DNA of 38,674 nt from a virus: IMG/VR virus record IMGVR_UViG_3300042519_003660, positions 1 to 38,674 of that record, one strand, 5' to 3'. Below, piece after piece: positions 13,917 to 38,012 of this stretch (the first letter of the stretch is position 1; the number at the start of each line of letters is the position of its first letter). The notes beneath the pieces were generated by a model. That model was not told where the DNA came from. It did not search any database and saw only the letters and a list, made by a program, of their open reading frames with translations. A program made the translations under genes and the position numbers.

Positions 13917-14501
13917 ATGGAAATCCTAAACTTTAACCAATTTAAGCTATTATTAGAAGCAGATGAACCTACTCCTATTCCACCACCAGTTGAGCCACCT
14001 TCGTCTACTGAGACTGAGGCTGCTCCATTGCCTGATGAAAATGCACCAGCTCCAGTAAGTTCACCGGATCCAACAACATCAATGACGCCACCTTCAACTG
14101 ATCCATTTGCAACTGCTGAATTACCACCAGACCCAAATGCACCAGCTCCAACCGCTGGTCAAACTGGCGATATTAATATTGTATTGGTAGATGATGATAA
14201 AAAATGGCATTCTAACTATACTGGAGGCGGAGGAGTTAAACGTTATAAAGAATATCAACTTAAGCAAGCTGATTTAGATAAATGGATCACCGATAGCCAA
14301 TTAGATTCAAAGAAAACTGATATAGTTGATGCCCTTAGGGGTAAAGGATTTTTAGATAAAGAAGTTTATGATAAACTAAAATCTGCAATGGCTGCTAAAA
14401 AACTAGGTATTGACAAAGGTGATATTGATATAGAGTTTGATTCTAAATTATCACCTTCAACCAATAAATTAGACGTAAATTTTATTAAATCTAAAAAATG
14501 A
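13917..14501 (+). CDS. Pro/Ala-rich protein with capsid-targeting-like leader
   Basis: A 194-residue protein I do not recognise. The N-terminus MEILNFNQFKLLLEADEP matches the T4 internal-protein leader (MKTYQEFIAEA) in layout: aromatic, x, Gln, Phe, hydrophobics and Glu followed by Ala, with LLE-A fitting the gp21 protease rule (L/I)-x-E. Residues 16-85 are a Pro/Ala/Glu/Ser-rich, probably disordered, linker. The C-terminal half (about 90-194) is charged and helical, with GGGGVKRYKEYQL. It is transcribed from an exact late promoter and overlaps the metalloprotease start by 4 bases, so the pair should be made in fixed ratio late in infection. An internal head protein or protease partner/inhibitor is possible; both are inference. 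Confidence 0.85.
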   Translation: MEILNFNQFKLLLEADEPTPIPPPVEPPSSTETEAAPLPDENAPAPVSSPDPTTSMTPPSTDPFATAELPPDPNAPAPTAGQTGDINIVLVDDDKKWHSNYTGGGGVKRYKEYQLKQADLDKWITDSQLDSKKTDIVDALRGKGFLDKEVYDKLKSAMAAKKLGIDKGDIDIEFDSKLSPSTNKLDVNFIKSKK

Positions 14502-15223
14502 TAAAAAGGTTTTCGCAATTTATATTTGAATCAAAATATGATTCACTTGCCTCAGTTTTTGCTAAAGACTTATTTGGTGTAATTAAGAAAACTGCTGGTT
14601 CCAAGCTTGGTAAAGAAATATCTAAAGAATTTGAATATGATAATCCACTTGAATTTACTCTATCAATTAAACTAGCTAGAGTTAAAGAATTTGAGCCAGC
14701 TAAATCTAAATATTTTAGTAGACTTCCTTGGGAGGTAATTAATTTTGAAAATAAAGGTTTTGCAATAGATGCAAATTCATTTATCCCAAAGGAAAACGAG
14801 CCTGAATCACCTGAAATTGAAATAATTCTCTATATTAGCCCAGAGGCAGAGCCTCAATGTTATCCGGAATTAAATTATAAGTTAATTGACAATATACGAC
14901 ATGAACTTGAGCACCTTTTACAAAAAGGCATAAATAAAAAGACTGGACATATTGTTAATACCCCAAAAGCAGTCAGAACCCGTGCTCAAAATAATTATAA
15001 CTACTTTTTATTATCTGACGAAATTCCAGCAATGGTTGCCGGTATGTATGCATCAGCTAAAAAGAAGCGAATACCTCTTGACCAGGAATTTACAGAATAT
15101 TTACAGCCATTCATTGAGACTAATGTAATTTCTCAATCTGAAGCTGACAAGGTTATGAAAACTTGGATAGATTTTGCTAAAAAAGTATACCCAGTAGCTA
15201 AATTTTCAAACAAATATCACTAA
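14498..15223 (+). CDS. Probable zinc metalloprotease with capsid-targeting-like leader
   Basis: A 241-residue protein whose N-terminus MIKRFSQFIFES is nearly the T4 capsid-targeting pattern MKTYQEFIAEA, with IFE-S as a plausible cut site. The core has IRHELEHLLQKG (His135, Glu136, His139), an HExxH zinc-binding motif. It is followed by SDEIPAMVAG, where Glu175 could be the third ligand, 36 residues downstream as in gluzincins. I see no signal peptide or membrane segment. The ATG overlaps the stop of the preceding gene (ATGA), and both follow a late promoter. I infer a protease packaged in the head and delivered with the DNA, or one acting in head maturation. It does not resemble the serine protease gp21. 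The family assignment rests on motifs only. Confidence 0.75.
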   Translation: MIKRFSQFIFESKYDSLASVFAKDLFGVIKKTAGSKLGKEISKEFEYDNPLEFTLSIKLARVKEFEPAKSKYFSRLPWEVINFENKGFAIDANSFIPKENEPESPEIEIILYISPEAEPQCYPELNYKLIDNIRHELEHLLQKGINKKTGHIVNTPKAVRTRAQNNYNYFLLSDEIPAMVAGMYASAKKKRIPLDQEFTEYLQPFIETNVISQSEADKVMKTWIDFAKKVYPVAKFSNKYH

Positions 15224-15245
15224 TATTTAAAACCGGGTGGATTTC

Positions 15246-15273
15246 TCAAATATAAGATACAAAAAATATTTGA
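15246..15273 (+). repeat. Inverted repeat before the Hc1-like gene
   Basis: TCAAATAT (15246-15253) and ATATTTGA (15266-15273) form a perfect 8-base inverted repeat with a 12-base spacer, ending 4 bases before the start codon. It could be an operator or an RNA hairpin at the start; AT-rich chance is possible. Confidence 0.35.
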
Positions 15274-15277
15274 AATT

Positions 15278-15469
15278 ATGACAACACCTACATGGTTAAC
15301 ATCGCTAAAGGAACAAGTTTCTCAATTAGAAGCAGAAGCTGGAAAATTCTACGAAAAAGGAAATAAATCAGCTGGAACTAGAACTCGTAAAGTTCTTCAA
15401 GACATTAAAGCTCTTTGTCAAGAAGGCCGAACTCACGTTCAAGAATCTAAAGTTGATACTAAAGCCTAA
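15278..15469 (+). CDS. Histone H1-like (Hc1-type) DNA-binding protein
   Basis: A 63-residue helical protein with the signature of Hc1-like proteins common in Bacteroidota: FYEKGNKSAGTRTRKVLQDI at about 24-43, then a helix ending HVQESK. Chlamydial Hc1 and its relatives bind and compact DNA; the phage version may coat phage or host DNA, or pack in the capsid. It carries only the short conserved domain and lacks the long Lys/Ala tail of full-length Hc1. It has its own terminator and an inverted repeat at its start, so it is probably a separate unit just before gp32. This family is also the best single clue that the host is a member of Bacteroidota. Confidence 0.8.
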   Translation: MTTPTWLTSLKEQVSQLEAEAGKFYEKGNKSAGTRTRKVLQDIKALCQEGRTHVQESKVDTKA

Positions 15470-15498
15470 TTTTTATTAGACAAAAAGTTCACATTTAA

Positions 15499-15529
15499 GG
15501 ACGGGTTTTACAACTCGTCCTTTTTTTTT
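15499..15529 (+). terminator. Rho-independent terminator after the Hc1-like gene
   Basis: GGACGGGT pairs with ACTCGTCC (one G-U) around a 6-base loop, followed by nine T. Confidence 0.9.
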
Positions 15530-15551
15530 CAAAACTCTTCACATTTCTTTA

Positions 15552-15560
15552 GTACAATTC
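15552..15560 (+). promoter_or_regulatory. Putative early promoter element before gp32
   Basis: GTACAATTC after a T-rich tract (ATTTCTTTA) is a two-mismatch variant of GTATAATTA at 3108 and 9965, 28 bases before the gp32 start. Confidence 0.25.
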
Positions 15561-15588
15561 TATTAAATTATTAAACATTATAAACAAT

Positions 15589-16641
15589 ATGGAAGATCTA
15601 TTCAATCTTAATCTCGATGATTTCTCAGGTAAATCATCATCCGCTGGTCGCAAAGTCGACGACAACATGTACAATCCCGGTCCAGACCAAGGTCAAAACG
15701 GTATTTACAAATCAGTTATTCGTTTTATCCCTTGGGTAACCGATCCAACTAAGAGCCGCTATAAAAAATATGCAGCTAAATTAATAAACCCTTTAACCAA
15801 CGAAAAGTTGTATGTAGATTGTCCATCAACGACAGGAGCATCATCAATTCTTTGGACGCTTGATCTTGAATTAAAGCGATTAAAAAATGAAGAGCCTACT
15901 ATTGTTGAAGAGATTCAAAAGTATTTTAATCGTTACTACAATTACTATTCTTGCGTTTATATCAAGAAGGATCCACAATTTCCTACAATGGAAGGTAAAA
16001 TCAAAATATATTCGTATGGATATACAATTGATAACCTAATCCAACAAGAAATTAATCCTGAGCAGGAATTAGTTACTACTCAAAAAATCAATCCATTCTC
16101 ACTTACTACTGGTAAAGATTTTGTTTTGGTTATTAAGCGTAAGACTAAAGCATGGAGAGATTTTAGTGCTAGTAAATTCATGAATGAAGTTAGCCCATTA
16201 ATTATCTCAACTCAAGGTAAAGAAATTCCAGTTTCTACTGAACCTAAGGTTATGCAGTTTGTAAGTGAATACTTTAAAAAGAATTCACCAGATATGAGTC
16301 AATATTTCTTAAAGGAATGGACTGATGTTGAATACGAAAAAGTTGCTGACTATATTAAAGCAATTATTCCTTACAAACAAATCATTGACAATTTAGTTGC
16401 AAATACTAAAGATGAAAGAATGAAAAAACATTTTAAATTATCTGCGCCAGTGGCTAGAACACAAGCACCACTTGGAGAAGATATTGAATTCACTCCAGCT
16501 CCAGCAGTAAAAAATGTAAGTTCATCAATTAATTTAGATGATGACTTTGAAATCTCTGCTCCAGCACCTGAAGTTAAACCTACCGCTAAAGCAGCTGCCC
16601 CAAAAGCAGATGATTTAGACGATTTATTTGCATCTTTATAA
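15589..16641 (+). CDS. 32: Single-stranded DNA-binding protein, T4 gp32-like
   Basis: A 350-residue homologue of T4 gp32 that coats ssDNA and organises replication and recombination. The core starts GIYKSVIRFIPW (T4: GQAVIRFLPS), continues with CVYIKKDPQFPTMEGKIKIY (T4: ILVVKDPAAPENEGKVFKY), and has NPFSLTTGKDFVLVIKRK and FSASKFMNE. The C-terminus is Ala/Pro-rich ending in an acidic ADDLDDLFASL tail, like the T4 DTDLDDLLNDL tail that binds partner proteins. Only two cysteines are present, so the zinc-binding His-Cys3 module of T4 gp32 is absent. It is followed by a small unknown gene and the FEN nuclease, a grouping close to the T4 32-59-33-rnh region. Confidence 0.92.
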   Translation: MEDLFNLNLDDFSGKSSSAGRKVDDNMYNPGPDQGQNGIYKSVIRFIPWVTDPTKSRYKKYAAKLINPLTNEKLYVDCPSTTGASSILWTLDLELKRLKNEEPTIVEEIQKYFNRYYNYYSCVYIKKDPQFPTMEGKIKIYSYGYTIDNLIQQEINPEQELVTTQKINPFSLTTGKDFVLVIKRKTKAWRDFSASKFMNEVSPLIISTQGKEIPVSTEPKVMQFVSEYFKKNSPDMSQYFLKEWTDVEYEKVADYIKAIIPYKQIIDNLVANTKDERMKKHFKLSAPVARTQAPLGEDIEFTPAPAVKNVSSSINLDDDFEISAPAPEVKPTAKAAAPKADDLDDLFASL

Positions 16642-16660
16642 AAAATAATTAAACTACAAA

Positions 16661-16939
16661 ATGGCAAAATCAAAAACACCACCAGTAGTTGAAGCTCCTC
16701 AGGTTGACGCAAATCAACCTGAGGCTGCTCCAATAGCTACTCTACTTTCTTCAATTAGTTATAGTAATCTTGAAGATTATGAAAACTTTTTGGTAAATTT
16801 AACTCCAGAACATGCAGTACTTATTCTAATAGCCTCAGCTAATCATTGCCAAGCTAAAGGAATATTTACACTAGAAGAATCTGAGCTTATTGTAAAAGCA
16901 ATAAAGAAACTACAAGTTCCTAAACAACCCACTAATTAA
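16661..16939 (+). CDS. Small protein of unknown function between gp32 and rnh
   Basis: A 92-residue protein with a Pro/Ala-rich N-terminus (to about 30) and a helical remainder (LEDYENFLVNLTPEHAVLIL, then ESELIVKAIKKL). I do not recognise it. In T4 this place holds genes 59 (helicase loader) and 33 (late coactivator), but I see no convincing similarity to either; position alone suggests a replication or late-transcription accessory. A strong 11-base-pair hairpin lies inside codons 13-22. Confidence 0.75.
   Translation: MAKSKTPPVVEAPQVDANQPEAAPIATLLSSISYSNLEDYENFLVNLTPEHAVLILIASANHCQAKGIFTLEESELIVKAIKKLQVPKQPTN
16697..16724 (+). repeat. Perfect 11-bp inverted repeat inside a coding region
   Basis: CCTCAGGTTGA, loop CGCAAA, TCAACCTGAGG. 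It is unusually GC-rich for this genome and starts 36 bases into the 92-residue gene just downstream of gp32. No T-run follows, so it is not a standard terminator; it could attenuate translation or be a protein-binding RNA hairpin. Confidence 0.7.
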
Positions 16940-16945
16940 AATAAA

Positions 16946-18058
16946 ATGAATCTAATCATAGACGGAAATGCTTTTTTAAACGTGGCAGTAAGTATTGTTA
17001 AAAACATTCTTGCAAACGATAAGAGAATTGGTGAAAAGTATTACGTTGCTGATTTATTAAACGATGATAAATTTATTCTTAAACAGGGTAGTAAAGATTC
17101 GTTTAAATCATTTTCAACAAATTATTTTGGAAGTATTCTTGCTCCATTTAAAGAAAATATCCAATCTGTATTTTTTGTATTTGACTCTAAGAGTTGGAGA
17201 AAAAAATATATTAAGGAGCATTTTGAAACACATGGAGAAGGAGACTTTAATTATAAAGGTCAAAGAAAATATGATGACAAAATTTATCTATTTTTTGAAT
17301 ACTTTCAAAATGAAATACTCAATATAATCTCAGATGAATATGGAGTTGTAGTCAATCGAGTACCTGGAGCAGAAGGCGATGACTTAATTGCTTACATTTG
17401 CGAAAATCTAAATGAGGACATTTGTATATGGTCGGTAGATAAAGACCTAACTCAATTACTTGAAAGTAATAAGCGTAAAGTTATCTTAATTATGCCAAAG
17501 CAAATGACCAAGTATAAAAAGATCTATACTACTGCTGATTTTGGTAAAGACGAAACTCCAGCAGAAGTTAATCTATTTGATTTTGATATTGAGGCAATTG
17601 ACAACTCAGCTGTTATTAATATAATAAATGACTTAACTCAAAAAGACTACCAGCACTTAACTATTGATCCAACCCTAGATATTTTAACAAAGTGTTTAGC
17701 TGGTGATAGTTCAGATAATATTCCAAGAGTTCATCCAAAAATGACTGCTTCTAAAGTATCTAAAATAATAGAGTACGTTAGAGAATCATATGAGTGGTCT
17801 GATGTTAAAGACCTAATCGATTCAGGTGATTCTGGGTTCCTTGATGTAATGCGTGAAATAACATGTGATACTCTAAAGATAAAGGAACCTGGTGAATGGC
17901 AGACGATCGAGAATAACATCCATCGTAATAAGACATTAGTAAGATTAAGTACAAAGCTTTTTCCAACTGATGTATTGGATGCAATAAAAGCAAGCGTGGA
18001 CTTAACCGTGCGCCGTAAATTCAATTATTACAAATTTAAAAAAAATTATAAATACTAA
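16946..18058 (+). CDS. rnh: RNase H / FEN-type 5'-3' nuclease, T4 rnh-like
   Basis: A 370-residue member of the FEN-1/5' nuclease family that removes RNA primers from lagging-strand fragments. Metal-binding acidic clusters are IIDGNAF (Asp6), FVFDSKSWRKKYIKEH (about 74-89, with the basic arch residues), PGAEGDDLIAYI (about 141-152), WSVDKDLTQLLE (about 162-173) and AGDSSDNIPRV (about 252-262, the helix-hairpin-helix start). T4 RNase H has 305 residues; this one is longer, with an insert before the GDSSDN motif. It follows the 92-residue gene by 6 bases and overlaps the GroES-like gene by one base (TAATG), so translation is coupled. Confidence 0.92.
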   Translation: MNLIIDGNAFLNVAVSIVKNILANDKRIGEKYYVADLLNDDKFILKQGSKDSFKSFSTNYFGSILAPFKENIQSVFFVFDSKSWRKKYIKEHFETHGEGDFNYKGQRKYDDKIYLFFEYFQNEILNIISDEYGVVVNRVPGAEGDDLIAYICENLNEDICIWSVDKDLTQLLESNKRKVILIMPKQMTKYKKIYTTADFGKDETPAEVNLFDFDIEAIDNSAVINIINDLTQKDYQHLTIDPTLDILTKCLAGDSSDNIPRVHPKMTASKVSKIIEYVRESYEWSDVKDLIDSGDSGFLDVMREITCDTLKIKEPGEWQTIENNIHRNKTLVRLSTKLFPTDVLDAIKASVDLTVRRKFNYYKFKKNYKY

Positions 18059-18390
18059 TGAGCATTGATATAACAAAAGGCTTTATGCCACTATTTGAAA
18101 GACTTCTAATTTTACCAGATACAGTAGAGAAAAAAACTGAAACTGGTATTATTTTATCAGTTGATGCACGCAAGCGCCCAAATACAGGAACAGTAATTGC
18201 AGTTGGCCACTCTGTTCCAGATAATTCAAAATGTCCAGTTAAAGCTGGAGATAAAGTTTTATATCAAAGATATTCAGGGCTTGATGTAACTTGGGATGGT
18301 ATCGGATATCATTTGGTAATAGCTAACGATCTTTTAGCCATAATAAATAAAGATCAAGATACACAATTTGAACTTAAAGAAAATGCTTAA
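18058..18390 (+). CDS. 31: GroES-like cochaperonin (T4 gp31 counterpart)
   Basis: A 110-residue cochaperonin, closer to bacterial GroES than T4 gp31 is. It has PLFERLLILP (GroES: PLHDRVIVKR), a mobile loop KKTETGIILSVDARKRP (about 25-41) with the hydrophobic IIL tripeptide that docks on GroEL, TGTVIAVG, VKAGDKVLYQRYSG, and DLLAII near the C-terminus (GroES: DILAIV). It would cap the phage GroEL at 3900 or the host GroEL to fold capsid protein. A 15-residue extension follows the core. The 3' end of the gene contains a late-promoter-like motif at 18341 and overlaps the start of the HAD gene by 8 bases. Confidence 0.9.
   Translation: MSIDITKGFMPLFERLLILPDTVEKKTETGIILSVDARKRPNTGTVIAVGHSVPDNSKCPVKAGDKVLYQRYSGLDVTWDGIGYHLVIANDLLAIINKDQDTQFELKENA
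18341..18352 (+). promoter_or_regulatory. Putative late promoter inside the GroES-like gene
   Basis: TAATAAATAAAG, identical to the minus-strand motif at 1752-1763. It lies 30 bases before the ATG of the HAD gene that carries a capsid-targeting-like leader, so that gene may be switched on late, independently of the upstream operon. It also encodes part of the GroES-like C-terminus, so chance is possible. Confidence 0.45.
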
Positions 18391-18955
18391 AAAATTTAAA
18401 CAATTTATCTTTGAAAAAAGAGGCGGAAAATACACAATTTTCTGTGATTTAGACGGTGTCCTAGTAGACTTTAACCGAGGCTTTACTGAAATTTCAGAAA
18501 ATCCTGAAAAACTTTCACCACATGCATATGAAGAGCTCCACGGTAAAAATTCAATTTGGCCAATCCTAGATAAATTAGGAGAAGATTTTTGGGCAGATTT
18601 ACCTTGGACGCAAGACGGTAGAGAATTATGGGACTATTTAAAACAATATGATCCAATTATCCTATCTGCTCCGAGTAGAAGTGCTGAATGTTTAGCAGGT
18701 AAAGCAAAATGGATTAAACTACATCTGCATATTGATGAAGAACCTGTTACTAAACCTGAAGATTTTACAAGTAAAACCAGAATAATTTTAGATCAAGACA
18801 AATGGAAATATGCCAGAGATAAATTTGACATTTTAATTGATGATTTTGATACTAAGCTAAATAAATGGACTGACGCTGGCGGAACTGGTATTTTACATAA
18901 TGACTCAACCGACTCAATTAGAGTTCTTGAAGGTATTATGGAACCTGAAGACTAA
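18383..18955 (+). CDS. HAD-family 5'-deoxyribonucleotidase-like protein with capsid-targeting-like leader
   Basis: A 190-residue HAD phosphatase of the 5'(3')-deoxyribonucleotidase type. Motif I is IFCDLDGVLVDF (Asp22, Asp24), motif II is IILSAPSR, and motif III is RIILDQDKWKYARDKF followed by DILIDDF with the metal-binding Asp pair. It would dephosphorylate nucleotides. Before the catalytic domain is MLKKFKQFIFEKRGG, the same leader as MIKRFSQFIFES of the metalloprotease gene; typical HAD nucleotidases begin a few residues before motif I, so this is an added leader. I chose ATG 18383 over an upstream TTG at 18368 because it gives the leader and the common 8-base overlap. It may be packaged, or a soluble enzyme with an unrelated N-terminus. 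Confidence 0.85.
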   Translation: MLKKFKQFIFEKRGGKYTIFCDLDGVLVDFNRGFTEISENPEKLSPHAYEELHGKNSIWPILDKLGEDFWADLPWTQDGRELWDYLKQYDPIILSAPSRSAECLAGKAKWIKLHLHIDEEPVTKPEDFTSKTRIILDQDKWKYARDKFDILIDDFDTKLNKWTDAGGTGILHNDSTDSIRVLEGIMEPED

Positions 18956-19010
18956 GTTCTTGGACTTAAACCAAGTGGTGGAATCTGACATATCCTGTCG
19001 GCCCTAAACA

Positions 19011-19038
19011 AAAAAGGACCTCAATTGAGGTCCTTTTT
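19011..19038. terminator. Bidirectional terminator between convergent genes
   Basis: AAAAAGGACCTC, loop AATT, GAGGTCCTTTTT: a perfect symmetric stem with T-runs on both strands, ending the plus-strand HAD gene and the minus-strand sheath operon. The preceding bases 18959-19005 contain two weak hairpins (CTTGG/CCAAG and GACA/TGTC) of unknown meaning. Confidence 0.93.
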
Positions 19039-19058
19039 ATTTGTATTAAACTTTTTAA

Positions 19059-19346
19059 TTAATCAGCAAAATAGTCACTAGGTCCGTGAGGTTTACCACC
19101 ACTTGGTTTACTCATACTGTGACTCATATTTGACATACTGTCAATAGCGGTTTTAGCGCTACTGTGACTATCATAATCTTTCCACATTGTACCTTTACCG
19201 AATAAAGATTCACAATCTTCATATTCACTACCGTCTGCTTTCATCTTAGGTGTTTTAGCAAATATTCTAAAGGAATCACCTACTGGTTTTACCATATATT
19301 GAACATCGTCATTAAAATTTTCAAATAGAGATATGTATCTTTTCAT
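19059..19346 (-). CDS. Small protein with capsid-targeting-like leader, downstream of the sheath
   Basis: A 95-residue protein starting MKRYISLFENFNDD, a variant of the shared leader with LFE-N as possible cut site. The middle (VKPVGDSFRIFAKTPKM, then YEDCESLFGKG) looks like a small folded domain; the C-terminus is Ser/Met/Gly-rich (SMSNMSHSMSKPSGG). I do not recognise it. It follows the sheath gene by 19 bases on the same strand and shares its promoter and terminator, so it should be expressed late with tail genes. Head-internal or tail-associated roles are both possible. Confidence 0.8.
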   Translation of the reverse strand: MKRYISLFENFNDDVQYMVKPVGDSFRIFAKTPKMKADGSEYEDCESLFGKGTMWKDYDSHSSAKTAIDSMSNMSHSMSKPSGGKPHGPSDYFAD

Positions 19347-19365
19347 AGTTTTTGTATTTTGTTAA

Positions 19366-22392: not shown

Positions 22393-22414
22393 CGCTTTTG
22401 CGTATTATTTTGAA

Positions 22415-23024: not shown

Positions 23025-24407
23025 ATGATTGTAAGCACAGAATTTCACACAGAAGACTCGACTCTAGTCATTTCTTATTATAAACCAGATGGTACAATCG
23101 GCTTTATGAAAAAGCCTATACTTCCACACGATCTTTATAATTGGAACTTAACCCCAACCCCAACTGAACACAGAAACTGGGATGGAAAGTTCCTAAAAAA
23201 AGTTCAAGGTAAATGGTTAAGTAAATTTAGGCTTGAGGAATTAACCCAAACTAGGTTAGATGAAACTGAACTTGCTTCAATCTATTCAGATGACAGTCCA
23301 AAAAAATATTATTTAGATATTGAGATTCAGTTAACTTCACAAGAGTTTCCTGATCCGGCAAAAGCCGCAATGCCAGTTAATTTAATTACTTTTGTTAATG
23401 AGGACAATGTTTGTTTTGTAATGTCAACCATGAAGAAATTGGAAGAGTCTCCAATTTTACAAATGCAAGATGAAGTGAATGACTACTTTAAAGCACACGG
23501 TCAAACATTTACCCTTAAATATCTTTTCTTTGAAACTGAAGAAGAGTTAATGAAAACGTTTTTCCATAAAGTTCTTCCAAAAATTCCATTCTTAACTGGT
23601 TGGAATGTTATTGGATTTGACTGGATTTATCTAATTAATCGTTGTAAAAAATTGGATATTGATCCAATGCAAACTATGCCGTCTAAAACCTTAATTGGTA
23701 AATCAAAAATGCCAATTCATTTAGGTCTTTTAGATTACATGGAAGTATTTATGAATACTAAACCCTATAAAGTTGTTGAGAATTATAAATTAGATTATAT
23801 TGCTAACCTAGTATTAGGAACAACTAAACTCCATAGTGAATATGCAACCATGATGGAAGCTCAACAAGATATTGAAAACTTTATCAAGTATAATATTATT
23901 GATACAATTCTTATTAAACTAATTGAAGATAAGCTTGGACTACTTGATGTTGCATTTGCAATTTCAAAATTTGCAAAGGTCGATGTTTCAAAAGTATTCT
24001 CAGCAGTATTCATTACTGAATCATTAATGTGTCGTGAGTTTTTAGATAGAGGCCGTTATATGGCAAATGATCGAAGAGACTTAGAAGAAGATGCAACGTA
24101 TGATGGAGCGTATGTTGCAAAGCCTGAGCCTGGATATTACAAATATGTTTCGTGTTTTGACTTTGCCTCAATGTATCCAAACATTCAAATTCAATTTAAT
24201 ATTTCGCCAGATGCGTATTTGGGAAAAATTAAACCTGGTGTTGAACTACAACCTGACCAAATATTAACAAAAAACGATACAGTCTTCACAAATAAAATGG
24301 ATTCAGCTGCTCGAACAATTCTTACTAAACTGTATAATGGTCGAGTAGACACAAAGAATCAAATGAAAAAATTAGAAGAACAATTGTCAAGTGAAAAAGT
24401 GGCTTAA
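23025..24407 (+). CDS. 43A: Family B DNA polymerase, N-terminal half only (split gp43)
   Basis: A 460-residue protein matching the N-terminal and exonuclease regions and the start of the palm of T4 gp43 (898 residues). Exo I is YYLDIEIQ (Asp about 98), Exo II GWNVIGFDWIYL (about 192), Exo III YNIIDTILI (about 290). Motif A is CFDFASMYPNIQIQFNISPD (T4: VFDLTSLYPSIIRQVNISPE). The chain stops at NGRVDTKNQMKKLEEQLSSE and then VA, in the region matching the T4 fingers helices, before motif B (KxxxNSxYG) and motif C (DTDS). Neither motif occurs in any reading frame product here. Naturally split gp43A/gp43B polymerases are known in T4-like Aeromonas phages, so a second subunit elsewhere is expected. 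The ending shows no intein residues. Confidence 0.9.
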   Translation: MIVSTEFHTEDSTLVISYYKPDGTIGFMKKPILPHDLYNWNLTPTPTEHRNWDGKFLKKVQGKWLSKFRLEELTQTRLDETELASIYSDDSPKKYYLDIEIQLTSQEFPDPAKAAMPVNLITFVNEDNVCFVMSTMKKLEESPILQMQDEVNDYFKAHGQTFTLKYLFFETEEELMKTFFHKVLPKIPFLTGWNVIGFDWIYLINRCKKLDIDPMQTMPSKTLIGKSKMPIHLGLLDYMEVFMNTKPYKVVENYKLDYIANLVLGTTKLHSEYATMMEAQQDIENFIKYNIIDTILIKLIEDKLGLLDVAFAISKFAKVDVSKVFSAVFITESLMCREFLDRGRYMANDRRDLEEDATYDGAYVAKPEPGYYKYVSCFDFASMYPNIQIQFNISPDAYLGKIKPGVELQPDQILTKNDTVFTNKMDSAARTILTKLYNGRVDTKNQMKKLEEQLSSEKVA

Positions 24408-25666: not shown

Positions 25667-26857
25667 ATGGCAAAATCAACAATGGACGCATTCGCCAAGT
25701 TTAACGACTTGCTCGAGAAAAAAGTCAAATCAAAAATTGAAATCAGAGGCTTCTCTGATATTGAAGAGTACATTCCAACTGGAAATTACTTATTAAATGC
25801 ACAAATGTCAGGATCCTTATTTGGAGGTTATCCTAATACTCGAAGTATTGGAATTGCTGGAGATTCAGGTTCAGGTAAAACATTCCTATGTTTAAATGCA
25901 GTTCGTGAATTACAAAAAATGGATTACATGGTAATTTATATTGACACTGAAGGTGCAATTGATTCAAGTGACTATGTTAAATTTGGAGTAGACTTAAGTA
26001 AATTAAAATATTTACGTATGGGTCTTATTAGCGAAGTTAAATTTTATGTGCATGACTTAATTGAAACAATTAAGGAGAATCCAGGACTTAAGATTGCACT
26101 ATTTGTAGATTCAGTAGGCATGCTTGATACTGATAAAAGTCAACGTGATATGGATGCAGGTAAAAACGCTGCAGATATGGGACTTCGTGCAAAAGAAATG
26201 AGGTCACTATTCAAATCATTAACTTTGGATCTTTCAAATTATAAAGTTCCATTTATTTTTACAAACCACACATATGCCTCAATGGATCAATATACGCCAA
26301 AGGGTATGTCAGGCGGTGGAGGTCCAGAATTCTCTGCATCAATTATCTTAATGTTGAGTAAAGGAACTCTTCGTGATGAAGCTAAAACCACTACTGGAAT
26401 TATTGTTCGTTCTAAAACTAAAAAGAATCGTTTAGCTCGACCTATTGATATTGAATTCCATATTTCATTCCATAAAGGTATGAATCAATTTGTAGGCCTT
26501 GAACAATATGTTAATTGGGAATCATGTGGAGTAGGTAGAGGTAATAAGTTAACTGAAAAGGAATTCTCTAAACTAAAACCAGACGAATCTGAATTATGTT
26601 CAAAATTTGAAGTAGCTGGAGAGACTTTCTATTTTCTACCAAAAAAACTTGGAAAAACCTATATCATTAAGCATAATGGTGATGCTGTTCCAGTTAAAGA
26701 ATTTTTCTCAGCTAGGTTATTTACTCATGAAGTATTAACGCAGTTAGACGAAACTACAATTAAGCCTACGTTTAAATTCCCTGAAACACAAGATGGAATA
26801 GACGAAATGGAAATAGACGAATTAGAAGATTTAACTGATTCTGATAATGACCTTTAA
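25667..26857 (+). CDS. uvsX: UvsX recombinase (RecA-like)
   Basis: A 396-residue RecA-family strand-exchange ATPase. Walker A is GDSGSGKT (65-72), IYIDTEGAID follows (about 90-99), Walker B is KIALFVDSVGML (about 142-153), and the DNA-binding loop region includes FTNHTYASMDQYTPKGMSGG. It coats ssDNA and drives recombination-dependent replication with gp32, gp41 and gp46/47, all in this window. The C-terminus is acidic (EMEIDELEDLTDSDNDL), as in T4 UvsX. The stop overlaps the next ATG by 11 bases. Confidence 0.95.
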   Translation: MAKSTMDAFAKFNDLLEKKVKSKIEIRGFSDIEEYIPTGNYLLNAQMSGSLFGGYPNTRSIGIAGDSGSGKTFLCLNAVRELQKMDYMVIYIDTEGAIDSSDYVKFGVDLSKLKYLRMGLISEVKFYVHDLIETIKENPGLKIALFVDSVGMLDTDKSQRDMDAGKNAADMGLRAKEMRSLFKSLTLDLSNYKVPFIFTNHTYASMDQYTPKGMSGGGGPEFSASIILMLSKGTLRDEAKTTTGIIVRSKTKKNRLARPIDIEFHISFHKGMNQFVGLEQYVNWESCGVGRGNKLTEKEFSKLKPDESELCSKFEVAGETFYFLPKKLGKTYIIKHNGDAVPVKEFFSARLFTHEVLTQLDETTIKPTFKFPETQDGIDEMEIDELEDLTDSDNDL

Positions 26858-32677: not shown

Positions 32678-32688
32678 TACATAAACCC

Positions 32689-32806: not shown

Positions 32807-32816
32807 CATTTTCATA

Positions 32817-32825
32817 GTATATTAA
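32817..32825 (+). promoter_or_regulatory. Putative early promoter before the gp42-like gene
   Basis: GTATATTAA after TTTTCATTTTCATA, directly downstream of a terminator and 40 bases before the ATG. It is similar to GTATAATTA at 3108 and 9965. Confidence 0.35.
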
Positions 32826-32865
32826 TAAGATCTAACGGTGAGTTTGATTAAAATTAACAAACAAT

Positions 32866-33750
32866 ATGATAATATTTAAAGGTTTAACATTTGCTGATGC
32901 ATATCGTGATTCTATTAAGTTTTTATTAACTTATGGACTTGTTAATAATGCACGAGGCACGACTAGTAAAGAATTACTAGATGTTGCTCTAGTTATTGAA
33001 GACCCAACTCAGTGTCTTTACGAAAATTCAGTTAGAGGTTCTCAGCAGAAATATATTGCGGCTGAGTTTTTATGGTATTATGCAGGCCGTAATGATTCAG
33101 CATTTATTTCAAAATGGGCAAAGTTCTGGGAAGAAATTCAAAATATCGATGGAACTGTCAATTCAGCATATGGAAACCTAATATTTACTGAAAAAAATGA
33201 GCACGCAATTAGTCAATACCAATGGGCAATTCAAAGCTTAGCAACTGATCAGAATACCAGACAGGCCGTACTACACTTTAATAAACCAAAACACCAATAT
33301 TCTTCAAATAAAGATTTTGTTTGTACAATGTATGCAAATTTACATATCAGACAAAATAAACTTTATATGAGTGTATTTATGAGAAGTAATGATGCAATCT
33401 GGGGTACTGCAACCGACGTAGCCTTCTTTTGTTCATTACAAATGCAAATCTTATCTCATCTAAAGCATTTTTATCCAGATCTTGAATTAGGGACCTATAC
33501 TCATGTTGCAAATTCATATCACGTCTATGATAGACACTATGACCTTGCTTCAAGAATGCTAGCTGAACCATTTACCTCAATAACACTACCGCCAATCGTA
33601 TCAGACTTAATTGAAATAGATGGCAGTCAAACCTCTGATTTTAAAACCTTATTTAATGCAATCACCTCAGAGTCCAATGATATTATCCTATTCCAAGATG
33701 GAGAAGATATTTTTAAATGGATATATGATAAAACTTTTCAATCTAAATAA
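32866..33750 (+). CDS. 42: Thymidylate-synthase-fold enzyme, probably dCMP hydroxymethylase (gp42-like)
   Basis: A 294-residue member of the thymidylate synthase fold. The catalytic Cys is in DFVCTMYANL (Cys153) and the phosphate/substrate site is MRSNDAIWGTATDVAFF (172-188). In ThyA the last polar residue of this motif is Asn177 (RSxDxxxGxPFN); here it is Asp184, as in T4 gp42 (MRSNDVVFGFRNDYAW). Asn-to-Asp at this place is the known determinant that switches the family from dUMP to dCMP. YTHVANSYHVYDRHYDL is the next conserved region. It would make 5-hydroxymethyl-dCMP (or 5-methyl-dCMP) for modified phage DNA. It is cotranscribed with dCMP deaminase, 2 bases downstream. A dUMP methylase is the alternative. 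Confidence 0.85.
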   Translation: MIIFKGLTFADAYRDSIKFLLTYGLVNNARGTTSKELLDVALVIEDPTQCLYENSVRGSQQKYIAAEFLWYYAGRNDSAFISKWAKFWEEIQNIDGTVNSAYGNLIFTEKNEHAISQYQWAIQSLATDQNTRQAVLHFNKPKHQYSSNKDFVCTMYANLHIRQNKLYMSVFMRSNDAIWGTATDVAFFCSLQMQILSHLKHFYPDLELGTYTHVANSYHVYDRHYDLASRMLAEPFTSITLPPIVSDLIEIDGSQTSDFKTLFNAITSESNDIILFQDGEDIFKWIYDKTFQSK

Positions 33751-33752
33751 GA

Positions 33753-34208
33753 ATGTATCAAAAGCAACATAAAATAGATATAGCCTACATTAAAATGGCC
33801 CAAGTTTGGGCAGAGCTATCTCATGCAACTAGAAAAAAAGTTGGTGCATTAATTGTAAAAAATAATACAATCATATCAGATGGGTTTAATGGAACTCCTT
33901 CTGGTTTTGAAAATGAATGTGAAGAAGCTATTAATAATGAAGATGGTTCTTTTAAAGAATATAAAACTAAATGGTATGTTTTACATGCCGAATCCAATGC
34001 ATTAGCAAAAGTCGCTAAATCTACCCAAAGTAGTGATGGTGCAACCTTATATATTACCTATTCCCCATGTACTGACTGTAGCAAATTAATTCTACAATCA
34101 GGTATTAAACGAGTTGTATATCTTGAAGAATATCGAGATATAAATGGCTTAGATTTTTTACGTCGTGCTGGAATTGAGGTTAAAAAAATCGACCATGATT
34201 CAATATGA
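33753..34208 (+). CDS. cd: dCMP deaminase
   Basis: A 151-residue zinc-dependent deoxycytidylate deaminase that converts dCMP to dUMP. Zinc and catalytic residues are HAE (78-80) and PCTDC (105-109). GFNGTPSGFEN (44-54) is the substrate-loop signature of the family. T4 Cd has 193 residues. It shares a substrate with the enzyme encoded just before it, so the pair may set the balance between modified cytosine and thymine precursors. It overlaps the next ATG by 4 bases. Confidence 0.95.
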   Translation: MYQKQHKIDIAYIKMAQVWAELSHATRKKVGALIVKNNTIISDGFNGTPSGFENECEEAINNEDGSFKEYKTKWYVLHAESNALAKVAKSTQSSDGATLYITYSPCTDCSKLILQSGIKRVVYLEEYRDINGLDFLRRAGIEVKKIDHDSI

Positions 34209-34606
34209 TAGATTCAGTAGATCGTACTCTCGAAATAATTTTCGTAAAGGATCAAAAACAATTCATTCAAATTTTTATTAAAAAACAAAAATGTGATTAC
34301 TTACTAAACGTAAATAAAATCATTAAAGAAAAATTTGATCAGGACATTCTAGTTCCTAACAAAATACAGTCATTCTTAATTAATTACGAAATTAAGAAAT
34401 TAATAGATAAGGCTATTAACGTAAGAAATCGAAAATATAATCGAATAATTTATGTTAATGCTGGACTAAGTGCAAGTAACATTAACAATACAGTTAAGTT
34501 CTTAAATACTGCATACACAACAATCGACTTTGTTCCACATCTAATTGATTCAGAATTAGAGATTGGGGACCTTGCTGGAGTAGACACAATAAAAAAGGGG
34601 CAATAA
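34205..34606 (+). CDS. Protein of unknown function at the end of the nucleotide operon
   Basis: A 133-residue Ile/Lys/Asn-rich protein. It begins MIDSVDRTLEIIFVKDQKQF and contains a Lys-rich middle and NRIIYVNAGLSASNINNTVK near residue 90. I see no catalytic motif I can name. It starts on the stop of the deaminase gene (ATGA), so it is translationally coupled, and its stop lies inside the loop of the shared terminator. Confidence 0.7.
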   Translation: MIDSVDRTLEIIFVKDQKQFIQIFIKKQKCDYLLNVNKIIKEKFDQDILVPNKIQSFLINYEIKKLIDKAINVRNRKYNRIIYVNAGLSASNINNTVKFLNTAYTTIDFVPHLIDSELEIGDLAGVDTIKKGQ

Positions 34607-34615
34607 ATCCCCTTT
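34594..34615. terminator. Terminator between convergent operons
   Basis: AAAGGGG, loop, CCCCTTT. The T-run is better on the minus strand (CCCCTTTTTT), so it mainly ends the capsid/tube cluster, with CTTTCTAATTT on the plus side. Confidence 0.8.
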
Positions 34616-34638
34616 CTAATTTAATATACTTTTAAAAC

Positions 34639-34992
34639 TTAGGATTTAGTTGTTTCTACTGTTCCTGAATAAATTAATGACTCTTCTGGTTTAGTTTTGT
34701 CATTTACTGCAATAATATCAAAATCTCCAGCTTTATCAGCCTTTGGAGAAACCATAATAGTTGCTCCCGATTTAATATTTGAATTAGTTGAACTAATTAC
34801 ATTAAACGATTTTGCTGAATCTGTTGTAAATTCTGAATCGGCATTTGCGGTAACTTCAAAATCTCCAGCGTCAGTTGATGATACTTTAAGATTATATGAA
34901 TTGCTGGGTTTAGCCGTATCCTCAACTTTAGGAGAATCTACAGCCTTTTCTTCTTCAGAAACCCATTGTTCAAATAATTTAATTAATCTCAT
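34639..34992 (-). CDS. Small protein with capsid-targeting-like leader
   Basis: A 117-residue protein starting MRLIKLFEQWVSEEEK, similar to the shared leader (LFE or WVSE as possible cut sites). The rest is Ser/Thr/Ala/Asp-rich and repetitive: TDAGDFEVTANAD (about 43-55) and KAGDFDIIAVND (about 86-97) look like two copies of a short beta-motif. I do not recognise it. It follows the acidic 216-residue gene by 3 bases and is last in the capsid/tube cluster. A minor head or core protein is plausible. Confidence 0.8.
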   Translation of the reverse strand: MRLIKLFEQWVSEEEKAVDSPKVEDTAKPSNSYNLKVSSTDAGDFEVTANADSEFTTDSAKSFNVISSTNSNIKSGATIMVSPKADKAGDFDIIAVNDKTKPEESLIYSGTVETTKS

Positions 34993-34995
34993 TAA

Positions 34996-35646
34996 TTATG
35001 CTTCGTTTTCTTCTTCAGTAGGTTCTTCACCTTCTGGATTTTCTTCTTCTTCTTCTTCCTCTTCTTCAGCAGGAGCGCACATCTTTTTAATAGCTGCACA
35101 TAGAATATCGCAAACTTCTTCTTTTTCAAGTTCCATTTTTTCAGCGATTTCATCAATCATTTCTTCAAGATCATCTCCGAAATCTGCCATTAGCATTTCT
35201 ACTTGTTCTTGATCTACTTCAACTTCTTCTTCCATTTCTGGAGTTGTTTCTTCCATTTCTGGAGTTTCTTCTTCAGCTTCAGCAAACATATTAAAACCTT
35301 CGTTTTCATTAACGAATTGTTCAAAGCGTTTGATAGTACCTTCTTCAACAGCATTAACTGTTGCAATTGTTTGTTTTGCGTACATTGGATTAAATGGTTT
35401 TTTCTTTGCAGTTCTTGAAATTAAATCACGGGTTACTGCTTTCCACGTTGGGTCATAATTATGATTGAAATTTCCACCTTCGAAATCGGCATTTCTGTCA
35501 ACTACTCGTTGGTATCCTTCAAGTGATTTTCTTTTTGATTTATCAAAGTCTTCCTTTGAATTTGGACCACCGAAACCTGGTTTCTTTAGGTCCATATAAT
35601 TATCCATTGAAGGATTGTCTCGGCGTTTTACATTAAATATGTCCAT
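34996..35646 (-). CDS. Acidic protein with internal capsid-targeting-like motif, possible prohead core
   Basis: A 216-residue protein with two parts. Residues 1-100 are basic/Asn-rich (MDIFNVKRRDNPSMD, then TWKAVTRDLISRTAKKKPF). At 105-114 is IKRFEQFVNE, which matches the N-terminal leaders of other genes here but is internal. The rest is Glu-rich (EEETPEMEETTPEMEEEVEV), with a helix EDDLEEMIDEIAEKMELEKEEV-like region near 158-180 and a poly-Glu tail near the end. The acidic half resembles T4 gp67-type core proteins in composition only. It could be a scaffold fused to another domain, or a polyprotein cut at the internal motif. It lies directly after the tail tube gene, where T4 has genes 20-67-68 in order. 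Confidence 0.75.
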   Translation of the reverse strand: MDIFNVKRRDNPSMDNYMDLKKPGFGGPNSKEDFDKSKRKSLEGYQRVVDRNADFEGGNFNHNYDPTWKAVTRDLISRTAKKKPFNPMYAKQTIATVNAVEEGTIKRFEQFVNENEGFNMFAEAEEETPEMEETTPEMEEEVEVDQEQVEMLMADFGDDLEEMIDEIAEKMELEKEEVCDILCAAIKKMCAPAEEEEEEEEENPEGEEPTEEENEA

Positions 35647-35658
35647 TATATAGTAACA

Positions 35659-35670
35659 GTTATTTTATTG
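35659..35670 (-). promoter_or_regulatory. Possible variant late promoter
   Basis: On the minus strand CAATAAAATAAC, the late motif with an extra A, 12 bases before the start of the acidic protein and overlapping the tail tube stop codon. Weak. Confidence 0.25.
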
Positions 35671-36252
35671 ACCAATTCGGGTTTCTTTATAAGTATCTGC
35701 TGTAAATTGTGCAGTTAACTTATAAATTGAATTATCTGCTGTATAGTCAAGAACAGTTTCAGTCATTTTGGTTGGACCAAGAAATACTGGGCCAAATACA
35801 AAATCTCTATAAATTACACCAGCTCTATTAAACATTGTTACTTGAATGCTTGCATCTGCGTAATCAGCTTTTAGACCTTGACGACCAGTTAATGGATCGT
35901 ATATTAAATCTCCCCATGATCTTAGAGCATTGTAGATATACATATCATTATTATTATTTAAGTTAACCTCAAATTCAATTGTAAACTGATGATATGTTTG
36001 AGCCGGTTTAGCTGGAGCATAAGTTCTTTGCGAGAATTTATAGTTTTGAGTAACTACTGCTGAACCTGAACCTGAAAATTCAGGTAGAGTTGATACTTTA
36101 AGCACGTGCTCAAGCATTAAATTATTTCCAAATCCGATTTTACCCGATACCAATGGTGGTGGAGTAATAATCACCTCAAACTGGTTAAGGTACAAGGGTT
36201 CATATTTAGCTGGACCTGCTGTTGAATTTTTAAAATGTGGTAGACCTGCCAT
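35665..36252 (-). CDS. 19: Tail tube protein, T4 gp19-like
   Basis: A 195-residue tail tube subunit. The segment YLNQFEVIITPPP at the N-terminus, HVLKVSTLPEFS, YAPAKPAQTYHQFTIEFEVN, MYIYNALRSWGDLIYDPLTG, MFNRAGVIYRDFVFGPVFLG and the C-terminal LTAQFTADTYKE are the standard pattern of gp19-family tubes. T4 gp19 has 163 residues. Its hexamers stack inside the sheath encoded at 19366-22392. A late promoter overlaps the end of the preceding gene and drives it. Confidence 0.93.
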   Translation of the reverse strand: MAGLPHFKNSTAGPAKYEPLYLNQFEVIITPPPLVSGKIGFGNNLMLEHVLKVSTLPEFSGSGSAVVTQNYKFSQRTYAPAKPAQTYHQFTIEFEVNLNNNNDMYIYNALRSWGDLIYDPLTGRQGLKADYADASIQVTMFNRAGVIYRDFVFGPVFLGPTKMTETVLDYTADNSIYKLTAQFTADTYKETRIGQ

Positions 36253-36270
36253 TTTATCTCGTATTTTTTA

Positions 36271-36282
36271 GTTATTTATTAT
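36271..36282 (-). promoter_or_regulatory. Late promoter for the tail tube gene
   Basis: On the minus strand ATAATAAATAAC, 18 bases before the tube ATG. The preceding gene's stop codon TAA lies inside the motif. Confidence 0.6.
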
Positions 36283-37318
36283 CAACCGAAGCACTTTGTT
36301 TACCAGGTTGCTTTTGTTTTTCAACAGGTTCACGTGAGTCGATTTCTTTTTGTATTTGTTTCTGTAAAGACTTAATCTCAGAGGTTGTTTTAGTTCCTAA
36401 TGTAATATTAGTTGCTTTAATAACATCTGCAATATCAAGTTCAGGTTTTTCTTTTGAATAGACTGAATTTGGATCTGGTGTAAAACTTAATTCAATTGAA
36501 GGTAGTATCTGAGCAAGTAAATTACCTCCAAACTTAAATTCAATTTCATCAAACTCTGCAAACTCAAGACGCGTTGTTTTTGATAATAATCCAGAAGAAG
36601 TTACTTCTGCCCAAATCTTTGTTCTGTTATCAATTTGTTCACCAGCTACTTGTTTAGTTAGGTTATTTGAAACTTTATATAAAAACTTAATGCCTGACGA
36701 ATAAGCTCCTCGACCTTCTTGACCTTCTAAGAATCTTAAGTTATCTCCATATACTGTAACTGTATATGCAGATGACTCAGTTTTTTGTGGTGCAATGGTA
36801 GTAGTTGTAATAGCAAGTTCCTGATCATTTGTCGTCACCTTAGGTTCATTACTAGTTTCTTTATTAGTATCAATAATCTCAGCAGGTTTCTCATCATCTG
36901 CTTTAATCGGGTCCTCTTCTTTTGACCCAGCTCCTAACTGCTTAGGGGCAGATGGGCCGGCTCCTAGTTGCTTAGCTGCTTCTGGCCCAGCTCCTAGTTG
37001 TTTAGAGGCAGCAGGTCCAGCATTAAGATATAACTCGTCAACTTTTTCCTTTTTATCATCAGACTTACTAGTTAATTTAGAGTCAATAACTTTATTAATC
37101 TCAACAATTAAGTCGTTTAGAAGTGATCCAGACGTATACTTGGTATAGACTGGAGCTGCAAATGCTGACACATATTGTAAATCAGGATAAACGTCAGTTT
37201 GATGTAACTCAATTGACTGTTTATTTTGATCCCACTTTGGCTGTTGACCATTGCCAGGATTATCCCAAGTTATTTTAAAACTTGCTACTGATTCAGCTAT
37301 TACTCCTTGTGCGCTCAA
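36272..37318 (-). CDS. Virion-associated protein of unknown function with tandem repeat
   Basis: A 348-residue protein I do not recognise. The N-terminal domain (1-95) has FKITWDNPGNGQQPKWDQNK and is followed by three tandem 10-residue units (about 100-130; GPEAAKQLGA). A Thr/Glu/Lys-rich linker comes next, then a beta-rich domain (about 185-300; YTVTVYGDNLRFLEGQEGRG) and a helical Lys/Gln-rich tail. It lies between a 101-residue gene (3 bases away) and the tube gene in the capsid/tail cluster, so a head or tail completion role is likely. The late promoter of the tube gene overlaps its stop. Confidence 0.8.
   Translation of the reverse strand: MSAQGVIAESVASFKITWDNPGNGQQPKWDQNKQSIELHQTDVYPDLQYVSAFAAPVYTKYTSGSLLNDLIVEINKVIDSKLTSKSDDKKEKVDELYLNAGPAASKQLGAGPEAAKQLGAGPSAPKQLGAGSKEEDPIKADDEKPAEIIDTNKETSNEPKVTTNDQELAITTTTIAPQKTESSAYTVTVYGDNLRFLEGQEGRGAYSSGIKFLYKVSNNLTKQVAGEQIDNRTKIWAEVTSSGLLSKTTRLEFAEFDEIEFKFGGNLLAQILPSIELSFTPDPNSVYSKEKPELDIADVIKATNITLGTKTTSEIKSLQKQIQKEIDSREPVEKQKQPGKQSASVDNK
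36927..37016 (-). repeat. Three tandem 30-bp repeats in the 348-residue gene
   Basis: Three imperfect 30-base units (36927-36956, 36957-36986, 36987-37016), each with a CTCCTA(A/G) core, encode AGP(A/E/S)A(S/A/P)KQLG-type decapeptides. A flexible spacer, prone to unit gain and loss, is the simplest reading. Confidence 0.85.
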
Positions 37319-37321
37319 TTA

Positions 37322-37627
37322 TTAACCTACTTCTTTTTCACCTTGGAATTCTTTTCCACGGTTTGATTTTTTGGTTGATGGATCAACTGGTTTATAGTTA
37401 GCCCAAATCTCATTGTAAATTCTACAAGATGCTCCCATAAAATTAACAATCCCAACGTATTTCTTACGATCTTCACCTTTCATTTTGGAAATCTTCTTTC
37501 CAATACTACGAGCATCATCTAAGTCCAATTGTTCATCATCAGTTTTTCCAACTAAATCCTTGATTGAATTTTCTTGAACAACGAACGACTGAAAGGACGT
37601 GACCTTATGTTTGTTTTGATCTGACAT
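37322..37627 (-). CDS. Small protein with capsid-targeting-like leader
   Basis: A 101-residue protein whose N-terminal region HKVTSFQSFVVQENSIKDL contains the shared leader pattern (F-Q-S-F-V-V-x-E), here 8 residues further in than in the other genes. The rest is charged and helical: DARSIGKKISKMKGEDRKKY, then GIVNFMGASCRIYNEIWANY. I do not recognise it. It lies 19 bases after the 121-residue repeat gene and 3 bases before the 348-residue gene, in the capsid cluster. Confidence 0.8.
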   Translation of the reverse strand: MSDQNKHKVTSFQSFVVQENSIKDLVGKTDDEQLDLDDARSIGKKISKMKGEDRKKYVGIVNFMGASCRIYNEIWANYKPVDPSTKKSNRGKEFQGEKEVG

Positions 37628-37646
37628 TTCAGAATGGGTTTTTTAA

Positions 37647-38012
37647 TTACTTAGGCATTTTAGCCATGTTAGGCTCAACTTTCTTACTGATAGCTTTACC
37701 TTTAATTATCAATTTAGACATTTTAGGGTCTACTGATTTTTTAGGTGAAGAGCCTTTAGTTGTAGGTAATTTAGAAACTTTTGTATCTACTGATTTTCCA
37801 ATCATTTTACCTTTTCCTTTAGGAAGAGTAGCCATTTCAGGTTTTACTGATTTGCTAATACCTTTACCTTTACCTTTTGGAAGTTCAGACATTGCCTGTT
37901 TTACAGTTGTGTTAGACTTTGAACCTTTACCGTTAGGTAATTCAGCCATTTCTTGGTTGATTGCTTTCTTTTCTAAAAGAAATTGTGAGTAGTTTAAAAC
38001 AGAATTGCTCAT
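37647..38012 (-). CDS. Basic repeat protein with capsid-targeting-like leader
   Basis: A 121-residue protein starting MSNSVLNYSQFLLEKKA, with the shared leader ending LLE. The rest is about six imperfect 18-20-residue repeats of the form SVKPEMATLPKGKGKMIGK, very rich in Lys, Gly and Ser and strongly basic. No hydrophobic core is evident, so it is probably disordered and DNA- or polyanion-binding, like T4 internal proteins. It is the first gene after the major capsid protein and has its own late promoter, suggesting a head-internal protein. The repeat period is too long and too basic for a coiled coil. Confidence 0.85.
   Translation of the reverse strand: MSNSVLNYSQFLLEKKAINQEMAELPNGKGSKSNTTVKQAMSELPKGKGKGISKSVKPEMATLPKGKGKMIGKSVDTKVSKLPTTKGSSPKKSVDPKMSKLIIKGKAISKKVEPNMAKMPK

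Follow-up and report, generated by a model that had tools for sequence, protein, structure and literature searches.

Why would otherwise unrelated proteins of one virus begin with the same short segment? The question arises from a 38,674-base stretch of viral DNA (IMG/VR record IMGVR_UViG_3300042519_003660, positions 1 to 38,674; hereafter the window), a fragment of a T4-like jumbo phage. An earlier note, made from the sequence alone, described such a segment near the start of seven genes and inside an eighth, and likened it to the capsid-targeting signal of T4 internal proteins. In T4, IPI-III and Alt, which are processed by the PF03420 protease gp21, likewise carry an N-terminal segment of about ten residues on otherwise unrelated proteins, with an aromatic residue, F, an aliphatic residue and Glu at positions 4, 7, 8 and 10 of IPII and IPIII. 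In the IPIII leader, targeting is reported to depend mainly on residues 4 and 7, and processing on residues 8 and 10 (PMC9026906). The equivalents of these four positions are the ones kept here, which supports the analogy. The segment is very probably (a probability of about 0.8) a T4-type capsid-targeting and processing leader within a greatly enlarged system, and scans of related genomes suggest that it is present on roughly 2-10% of genes in the window's phage lineage.

The leader was sought genome by genome among open reading frames (ORFs) of at least 50 residues, using a strict motif, [FY]xx[FW][ILVM]xE, that follows the T4 positions and starts at residues 2-20. Expectations were taken from internal positions and from 200 residue shuffles. 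In the window, 4/43 ORFs match (internal expectation 0.16; shuffle mean 0.06; shuffle maximum 1). With the same three values in parentheses, the relatives compared give 18/335 in G002 (1.3; 0.64; 3), 12/221 in G005 (0.82; 0.34; 2), 19/320 in G006 (1.11; 0.42; 3), 13/298 in G007 (1.11; 0.37; 2) and 6/251 in G008 (0.97; 0.41; 4), and the 462-kb phage LR756500 gives 21/657 (1.87; 1.36; 4). When flexible spacing is allowed, these six genomes yield, in the same order, 25, 23, 33, 23, 14 and 28 proteins, compared with shuffle maxima of 9, 5, 8, 6, 8 and 15 (shuffle means are 1.9-2.7 in the first four). Phi-N-E alone is merely mildly enriched at N-termini. Applied to T4, the scan returns 4/255 (1.03; 0.55; 4), namely ipII, ipIII, gp61.1 and gp61.4, the last two of unknown meaning, and thus recovers the known case; P-SSM2 gives 4/317 (0.59; 0.42; 3). 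The strict motif is rare or absent in the relatives PTm1 (1/313), MaF61 (1/198), PAU (0/297) and pT24 (0/287), and the counts are 1/368 in phiKZ and 0/61 in 60 kb of Lak. Residue shuffles and internal positions together rule out chance or composition as the source of the leader, and the genome-wide motif search proposed in the earlier note therefore does not end at the chance level. A loose pattern matches 7/43 ORFs of the window (shuffle mean 0.68; maximum 4); one of the seven, FAKFNDLLE of the UvsX gene at 25667, is probably accidental and has no late-type motif upstream.

Within the window, all eight reported segments were found at their positions (Table 1), and the sharing of a leader is real, with some examples looser than had been claimed. 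The proposed formula, F/Y-x-Q/S-F-I/L/V-x-E, fits FSQFIFE of the 241-residue protein, FKQFIFE of the HAD protein and YSQFLLE of the 121-residue protein and fails for the other four of the seven. Judged by the equivalents of IPIII positions 4, 7, 8 and 10, four of the seven cases are strict, two are variants and one does not qualify. The fourth strict case, in the 117-residue protein, departs from the literal formula and carries the T4-position motif as FEQWVSE, with W replacing F at position 7, while the variants FQSFVVQE (101-residue protein) and FNQFKLLLE (194-residue protein) have one or two extra residues before Glu. YISLFE of the 95-residue protein does not match the pattern and is doubtful as a leader. 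By its sequence, YISLFENF could be a degenerate FENF form; such forms are uncommon at N-termini yet exceed their internal rate there. This gene has no homolog among the genomes compared.

Conservation follows the same positions. The 121-residue protein keeps its pattern in homologs down to 43% identity, and the 117-residue protein keeps [FY]EQWxxE in orthologs down to 34% identity, one of which has it behind an upstream extension. Two Phe and the Glu are retained in every aligned row of the 241-residue protein (9/9) and the HAD protein (10/10, two pairs of rows being the same gene). The 101-residue protein is looser: the pattern was sought within the first 60 residues, and the 10 distinct homologs without it include longer N-termini. 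The claim of an internal copy at residues 108-114 of the 216-residue protein holds well, since FEQFVNE is kept in every readable ortholog (37 distinct sequences, two of which end before the site) at a conserved joint between the N-domain and a variable acidic tail. A cut at this site would free the acidic tail, which may resemble the T4 core protein gp67.

No S77 match was found in the window. The gp21-like S77 protease (PF03420) that the earlier note proposed to seek elsewhere in the genome is present in 14/14 relatives searched (four being almost one and the same 270-kb phage). At each of five relative loci whose gene order was compared, the capsid gene is immediately preceded by a protease-scaffold or scaffold frame, and on this basis the protease-scaffold gene of the window is expected beyond its right end. 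Of 21 loci given to the protease alignment, 11 gave a frame under the selection rule and 10 were dropped; the HP and SSR/STR blocks of T4 gp21, which hold the catalytic His and Ser, align in all 11 sequences. Additionally, PHROG 207 ("head maturation protease") matches 3/3 proteases.

At 11 relative loci, the open frame of the protease (658-680 residues) runs on into a repeat region. At 60/80 capsid loci there is a frame in which four or more motif copies keep a 14-residue register; these frames represent 47 distinct scaffolds and 279 distinct units, and the pattern of the units, YxxY[ILV]xE, is the leader's own. Among the 279 units, Y or F occupies position 1 in 265, Y position 4 in 257, L, V or I position 5 in 276 and E position 7 in 248. 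The protease-scaffold ORF, with 8 copies, has more copies of the motif than any other called ORF in G006, G007 and G008. In LR756500, the scaffold repeats are a degenerate version, and none were seen in PTm1, pT24, PAU or Lak. Six genomes have both the repeats and the leader dialect of the window clade, and four have neither (including Lak, of which 60 kb was scanned for leaders); this co-occurrence is weakened by the fact that the window clade is one lineage and that T4 has leaders but a gp22 without such repeats. When scored with a profile of the scaffold repeats, IPII and IPIII take the first two places among 255 T4 proteins. In a model of the protease-scaffold ORF, whose mean pLDDT of 47 supports no further reading, the repeats are predicted to be helical. 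A conserved in-frame Met stands at the scaffold start (MANEFVTKxEMNQYS or close) in L021:7005-8843, L007:7501-8784 and L044:7518-8795. It is the first ATG of the frame in L007 and L044, so the protease start there is another codon. By analogy with lambda C/Nu3, a precedent for an internal-start scaffold, the scaffold may also be made alone.

The capsid protein carries the cut site in a different setting. Of 67 full-length capsid proteins (52 distinct), 66 have an [ILV]xE whose first residue falls within 51-56; the exception has MNE. This triplet directly precedes a stretch of variable length, and other xE triplets occur earlier in the propeptide. The aromatic pair is absent from all 66 sites, so cutting by itself does not account for the pair that leaders and repeats carry. 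This observation bears on the first alternative, that the segment is merely a prohead protease recognition site at which proteins that reach the head through other contacts are trimmed. Such an account would explain why (I/L/V)xE is common to leaders, scaffold repeats and capsid protein, but it leaves aside a pair that is missing at the capsid sites and kept in leaders, scaffold repeats and the internal copy. In G006 and G007, moreover, the VanY homologs keep the pair with the cut site shifted three residues on, and the NUDIX homologs keep the pair without a cut site. Targeting and processing also map to different residues in T4, as far as that work is reported (PMC9026906), and the recognition-site explanation is unlikely. 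As read from the sequences, the division of labor is T4-like, with the aromatic pair in scaffold and leaders and xE in all likely protease targets.

Sphingomonas phage PAU, a cultured relative that has a gp23 capsid and a PF03420 protease, also carries a shared leader. Its sequence is different, MKT[LI][ST][KQ]LYE, often followed by KLNE, and was seen by eye in core genes; 20 genes (L164-L174) have a leader of the MKTLSKLYEAKLNEA type. The pattern ^M[KR].{1,6}L[YF]E matches 20/297 PAU proteins, and an unguided count of N-terminal patterns agrees (L[YF]E within the first 16 residues in 22/297). In the PAU annotation, read over 1-216,999, five genes are labeled internal capsid protein (gp70, gp142, gp154, gp199 and gp270), on a basis that the depositors' notes do not state; four of these have the leader (hypergeometric P 7e-5), and all four are already in the unguided list. 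gp70 and two "internal capsid vertex" proteins have no leader. N-terminal sequencing of the mature PAU capsid protein is reported to give 520 of 585 residues (PMC5646251), a length that places the cut within one residue of LME64. These two PAU results, both indirect, are as near as experiment comes to head location and cleavage in the window's phage. Unlike the window clade, PAU has no 14-residue repeats that could be seen in its protease or neighboring core genes. Hints of further dialects, each in few genes, come from pT24 ([IV]SxY[LI]xE; L211-L222) and Lak-A1 (MNKxIKxLxESLFDD; L232-L234).

The proteins behind the leader are diverse. When leader proteins are clustered at E 1e-4 with the first 20 residues removed, the strict leader is found on 56 sequence clusters (39 from the window clade and 17 from LR756500) and thus on otherwise unrelated proteins, including enzymes. 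Of the 89 strict leader proteins in the five relatives and LR756500, 40 were searched with Pfam, and 8/40 match above the curated cut-off: phage lysozyme (1e-9), VanY (1.4e-12), NUDIX (9e-15), AAA_5 (2e-9), CHAP (9.5e-8), LRR (1e-33), DUF2201 metallopeptidase/VWA (9e-34) and polynucleotide 3'-phosphatase (2e-21). In the window, the HAD gene is a 5'-deoxynucleotidase by PHROG 2643 (E 1.9e-23), with Pfam matches below the cut-off. The 241-residue protein keeps its HExxH (H135, E136 and H139 are invariant in 9/9 aligned sequences). Its AlphaFold2 model (mean pLDDT 82.4) has no Foldseek match at E<=0.001, and the single profile match is at E 0.069. In VIA-align, HExxH-domain, oligopeptidase, lethal-factor and IrrE chains reach Z of about 3-4.4, below unrelated rows (up to Z 5.1), and no known peptidase fold is assignable. 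For the remaining leader genes of the window, PHROG and Pfam give no convincing family.

Several leader proteins in the relatives have features of their own. Those at L100:969-1814 and L263:11610-12434 end in a phage lysozyme domain (by Pfam for the L100 protein) and have, judged only by eye, an annexin-like repeat behind the leader. In LR756500 (L187, L196, L202, L203), five leader proteins make up one cluster, whose single Pfam-searched member is LRR, alongside two related proteins that lack the strict leader. At L104:3375-4931 and L253:7535-9088, the motif recurs near the C-terminus of a protein of 517/518 residues, whose last residues are GFADFIKEQNN.

The presence of lysozyme, VanY and CHAP domains, which are wall hydrolases, would suit a second alternative, in which the leader directs its bearers to another part of the virion (the tail or baseplate) or to the membrane or wall of the host. 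NUDIX, nucleotidase, LRR, AAA and polynucleotide phosphatase cargo has no wall function, however, the motif matches the likely substrates of the capsid protease, and the PAU leader marks annotated internal capsid proteins; a destination outside the head is quite improbable.

Codon usage in the leaders addresses selection at the DNA level. The fraction of identical codons among leaders, relative to genome expectation, is 0.518 vs 0.529 in G002, 0.561 vs 0.509 in G005, 0.538 vs 0.513 in G006, 0.541 vs 0.511 in G007 and 0.820 vs 0.816 in LR756500. Matching residues thus use matching codons near the expected rate, which points to selection mainly on the peptide and disfavors a DNA-level signal or recent leader duplication. 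That the segment is a functionless relic of gene duplication or leader shuffling, or a conserved DNA signal, is barely credible: the LRR paralogs of LR756500 indicate that some leader genes are duplicates, and in G005, G006 and G007 leaders share codons slightly more often than expected, but codon identity stays close to expectation, and the same positions are kept at protein identities as low as about 35-45%.

Upstream sequences of leader genes share a motif. A k-mer count yielded ATAAATAA, which resembles the T4 late promoter core. Taking the window, G002, G005, G006 and G007 together, ATAAATA lies within 80 nucleotides (nt) upstream of 35/66 leader genes and 172/1146 others, with genome-by-genome P values of 0.09 for the window (2/4), 0.0008 for G002, 0.0055 for G005, 0.0005 for G006 and 0.0003 for G007. 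It also precedes the tail tube gene (5/5) and sheath gene (2/2) in genomes where these were found, and none of 28 early-type genes. The 216-residue gene has no ATAAATA upstream (0/3).

Several observations weigh against a T4-type targeting leader. The protease and scaffold lie outside the window, and the evidence for them is taken from relatives. On average the mature cargo is slightly acidic or neutral, whereas T4 internal proteins are basic. At the Y positions of the scaffold, leaders favor F or W, and a profile trained on the scaffold sets leaders apart only to a modest degree: at threshold 6 it finds 12 in G002 (internal positions predict 4.3, and one shuffle gave 7) and 21 in LR756500 (10 and 9, respectively), too weak a separation for use as a stand-alone leader finder. 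The strict count in T4 equals its own shuffle maximum, and that in P-SSM2 (4) is set against a maximum of 3. As for ATAAATA, it came out of a k-mer count on the very genomes then used for the test, between which orthologs recur; its enrichment is not significant in the window alone, in G008 (1/6) or in LR756500 (5/21), and the capsid gene has none within 80 nt (0/3).

Taken as a targeting leader, the segment would work as follows. Cargo proteins would be made late, and the aromatic pair of the leader would bind the prohead core. The core would consist of a protease-scaffold fusion whose scaffold part is a series of tandem 14-residue units of the form aromatic-x-x-aromatic-aliphatic-x-Glu. During head maturation, the protease would cut after the Glu of (I/L/V)xE, and the mature cargo would remain inside the head until it passed into the next host together with the DNA. 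Since the scaffold units share the leader's pattern, the leader may join the core as a stray scaffold repeat under the same cut rule. Packaging, cleavage, ejection and binding to the repeats are inferred, as is the presence of the same protease and scaffold in the window's own phage. A further step, rather less likely than not, is that the leader works by imitating a scaffold repeat: that it is a detached scaffold unit, that cargo polymerizes into the core as honorary scaffold, that one protease frees both, and that lineages have their own dialects. If so, the gain of some ten residues would be enough to make cargo of any gene, the T4 leader would represent the same device, still surviving, and the leader dialect of each lineage (the window clade, PAU, and perhaps pT24 and Lak) would be set by its own core.

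Known systems share parts of this arrangement. T4 differs in having a handful of leader genes rather than the 6-21 strict ones per relative seen here, where enzymes are included, cargo is not basic on average, Glu spacing varies and the protease is fused to a repeat scaffold. In the giant phages SPN3US and phiKZ, head proteins are reported to have N-terminal propeptides that are removed by the prohead protease and for which a targeting role has been proposed (PMC5694885). Unlike the leader described here, several of the reported propeptides exceed 100 residues, one being of 20 (PMC5694885), and phiKZ has its single strict match and no PF03420 match. In P1, an N-terminal capsid localization signal of DarB is reported to carry a reporter into the capsid (PMC9024508); the likeness is one of description, and the signal is described there for one large protein.

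Table 1. Leader segments and associated features of the window
Feature	Positions	Strand	Remarks
Leader variant FNQFKLLLE, residues 6-14 of 194-residue gene 13917-14501	13932..13958	+	Similar leader in homologs of G002, G005, G006, G007
Leader FSQFIFE, residues 5-11 of 241-residue HExxH gene 14498-15223	14510..14530	+	F5, F8, E11, S12 invariant in 9/9
Leader FKQFIFE, residues 5-11 of HAD 5'-deoxynucleotidase-like gene 18383-18955	18395..18415	+	F5, Q7, F8, E11 invariant in 10/10
95-residue gene with YISLFENF, doubtful leader	19059..19346	-	Off the strict motif
Leader FEQWVSE, residues 7-13 of 117-residue gene 34639-34992	34954..34974	-	[FY]EQW[VLI]xE in 15/15 distinct orthologs
Internal motif FEQFVNE, residues 108-114 of 216-residue gene 34996-35646	35305..35325	-	35/35 readable orthologs
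Leader variant FQSFVVQE, residues 12-19 of 101-residue gene 37322-37627	37571..37594	-	Loose form in 28/38 distinct homologs
Leader YSQFLLE, residues 8-14 of 121-residue Lys-rich repeat gene 37647-38012	37971..37991	-	Yxx[FY][IL]xE in 36/37 distinct homologs
gp23-like major capsid gene, 3' part	38131..38658	-	Pfam Gp23, E 3.5e-20

Around these genes, the window holds tail sheath, tail tube, SSB, UvsX, helicase, GroEL-like and GroES-like genes, named from their translations and not each searched. The GroEL-like (3900-5480) and GroES-like (18058-18390) genes, so named, lie far apart. By reading, a family-B DNA polymerase-like ORF of 460 residues (23025-24407) ends after a DFASMYPN block; the following gene is unlike the remainder of a polymerase, so the polymerase gene may be split. 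Between the 101-residue gene and the tail tube gene, a 348-residue ORF (36272-37318; longest form from TTG) begins MSAQGVIAES, which may hold a cut site but lacks the aromatic pair. Megablast of positions 13001-38000 against phage records gave no match. Among those listed, the best capsid and sheath matches include metagenomic huge phages, Lak phages, Tenacibaculum phages, Flavobacterium phage MaF61 and PAU, and near relatives at 95-99% capsid identity include 270-kb records. The lineage may fall within the mostly Bacteroidota "moraphages", as far as these are described (PMC12619734).

The targeting-sequence papers found concern T4, P1 and SPN3US (PMC3012670, PMC9026906, PMC9024508, PMC5694885); among the open-literature matches listed, none is a targeting-sequence paper on these phages and none links leader to scaffold repeats. 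Scaffold repeats with the signal's own pattern offer a direct, testable explanation of how a T4 signal of ten residues locates the core of the prohead. Furthermore, the leader turns hypothetical proteins of uncultured jumbo phages into a list of predicted head cargo that includes several enzymes, and gives a means of recognizing such cargo from sequence alone.

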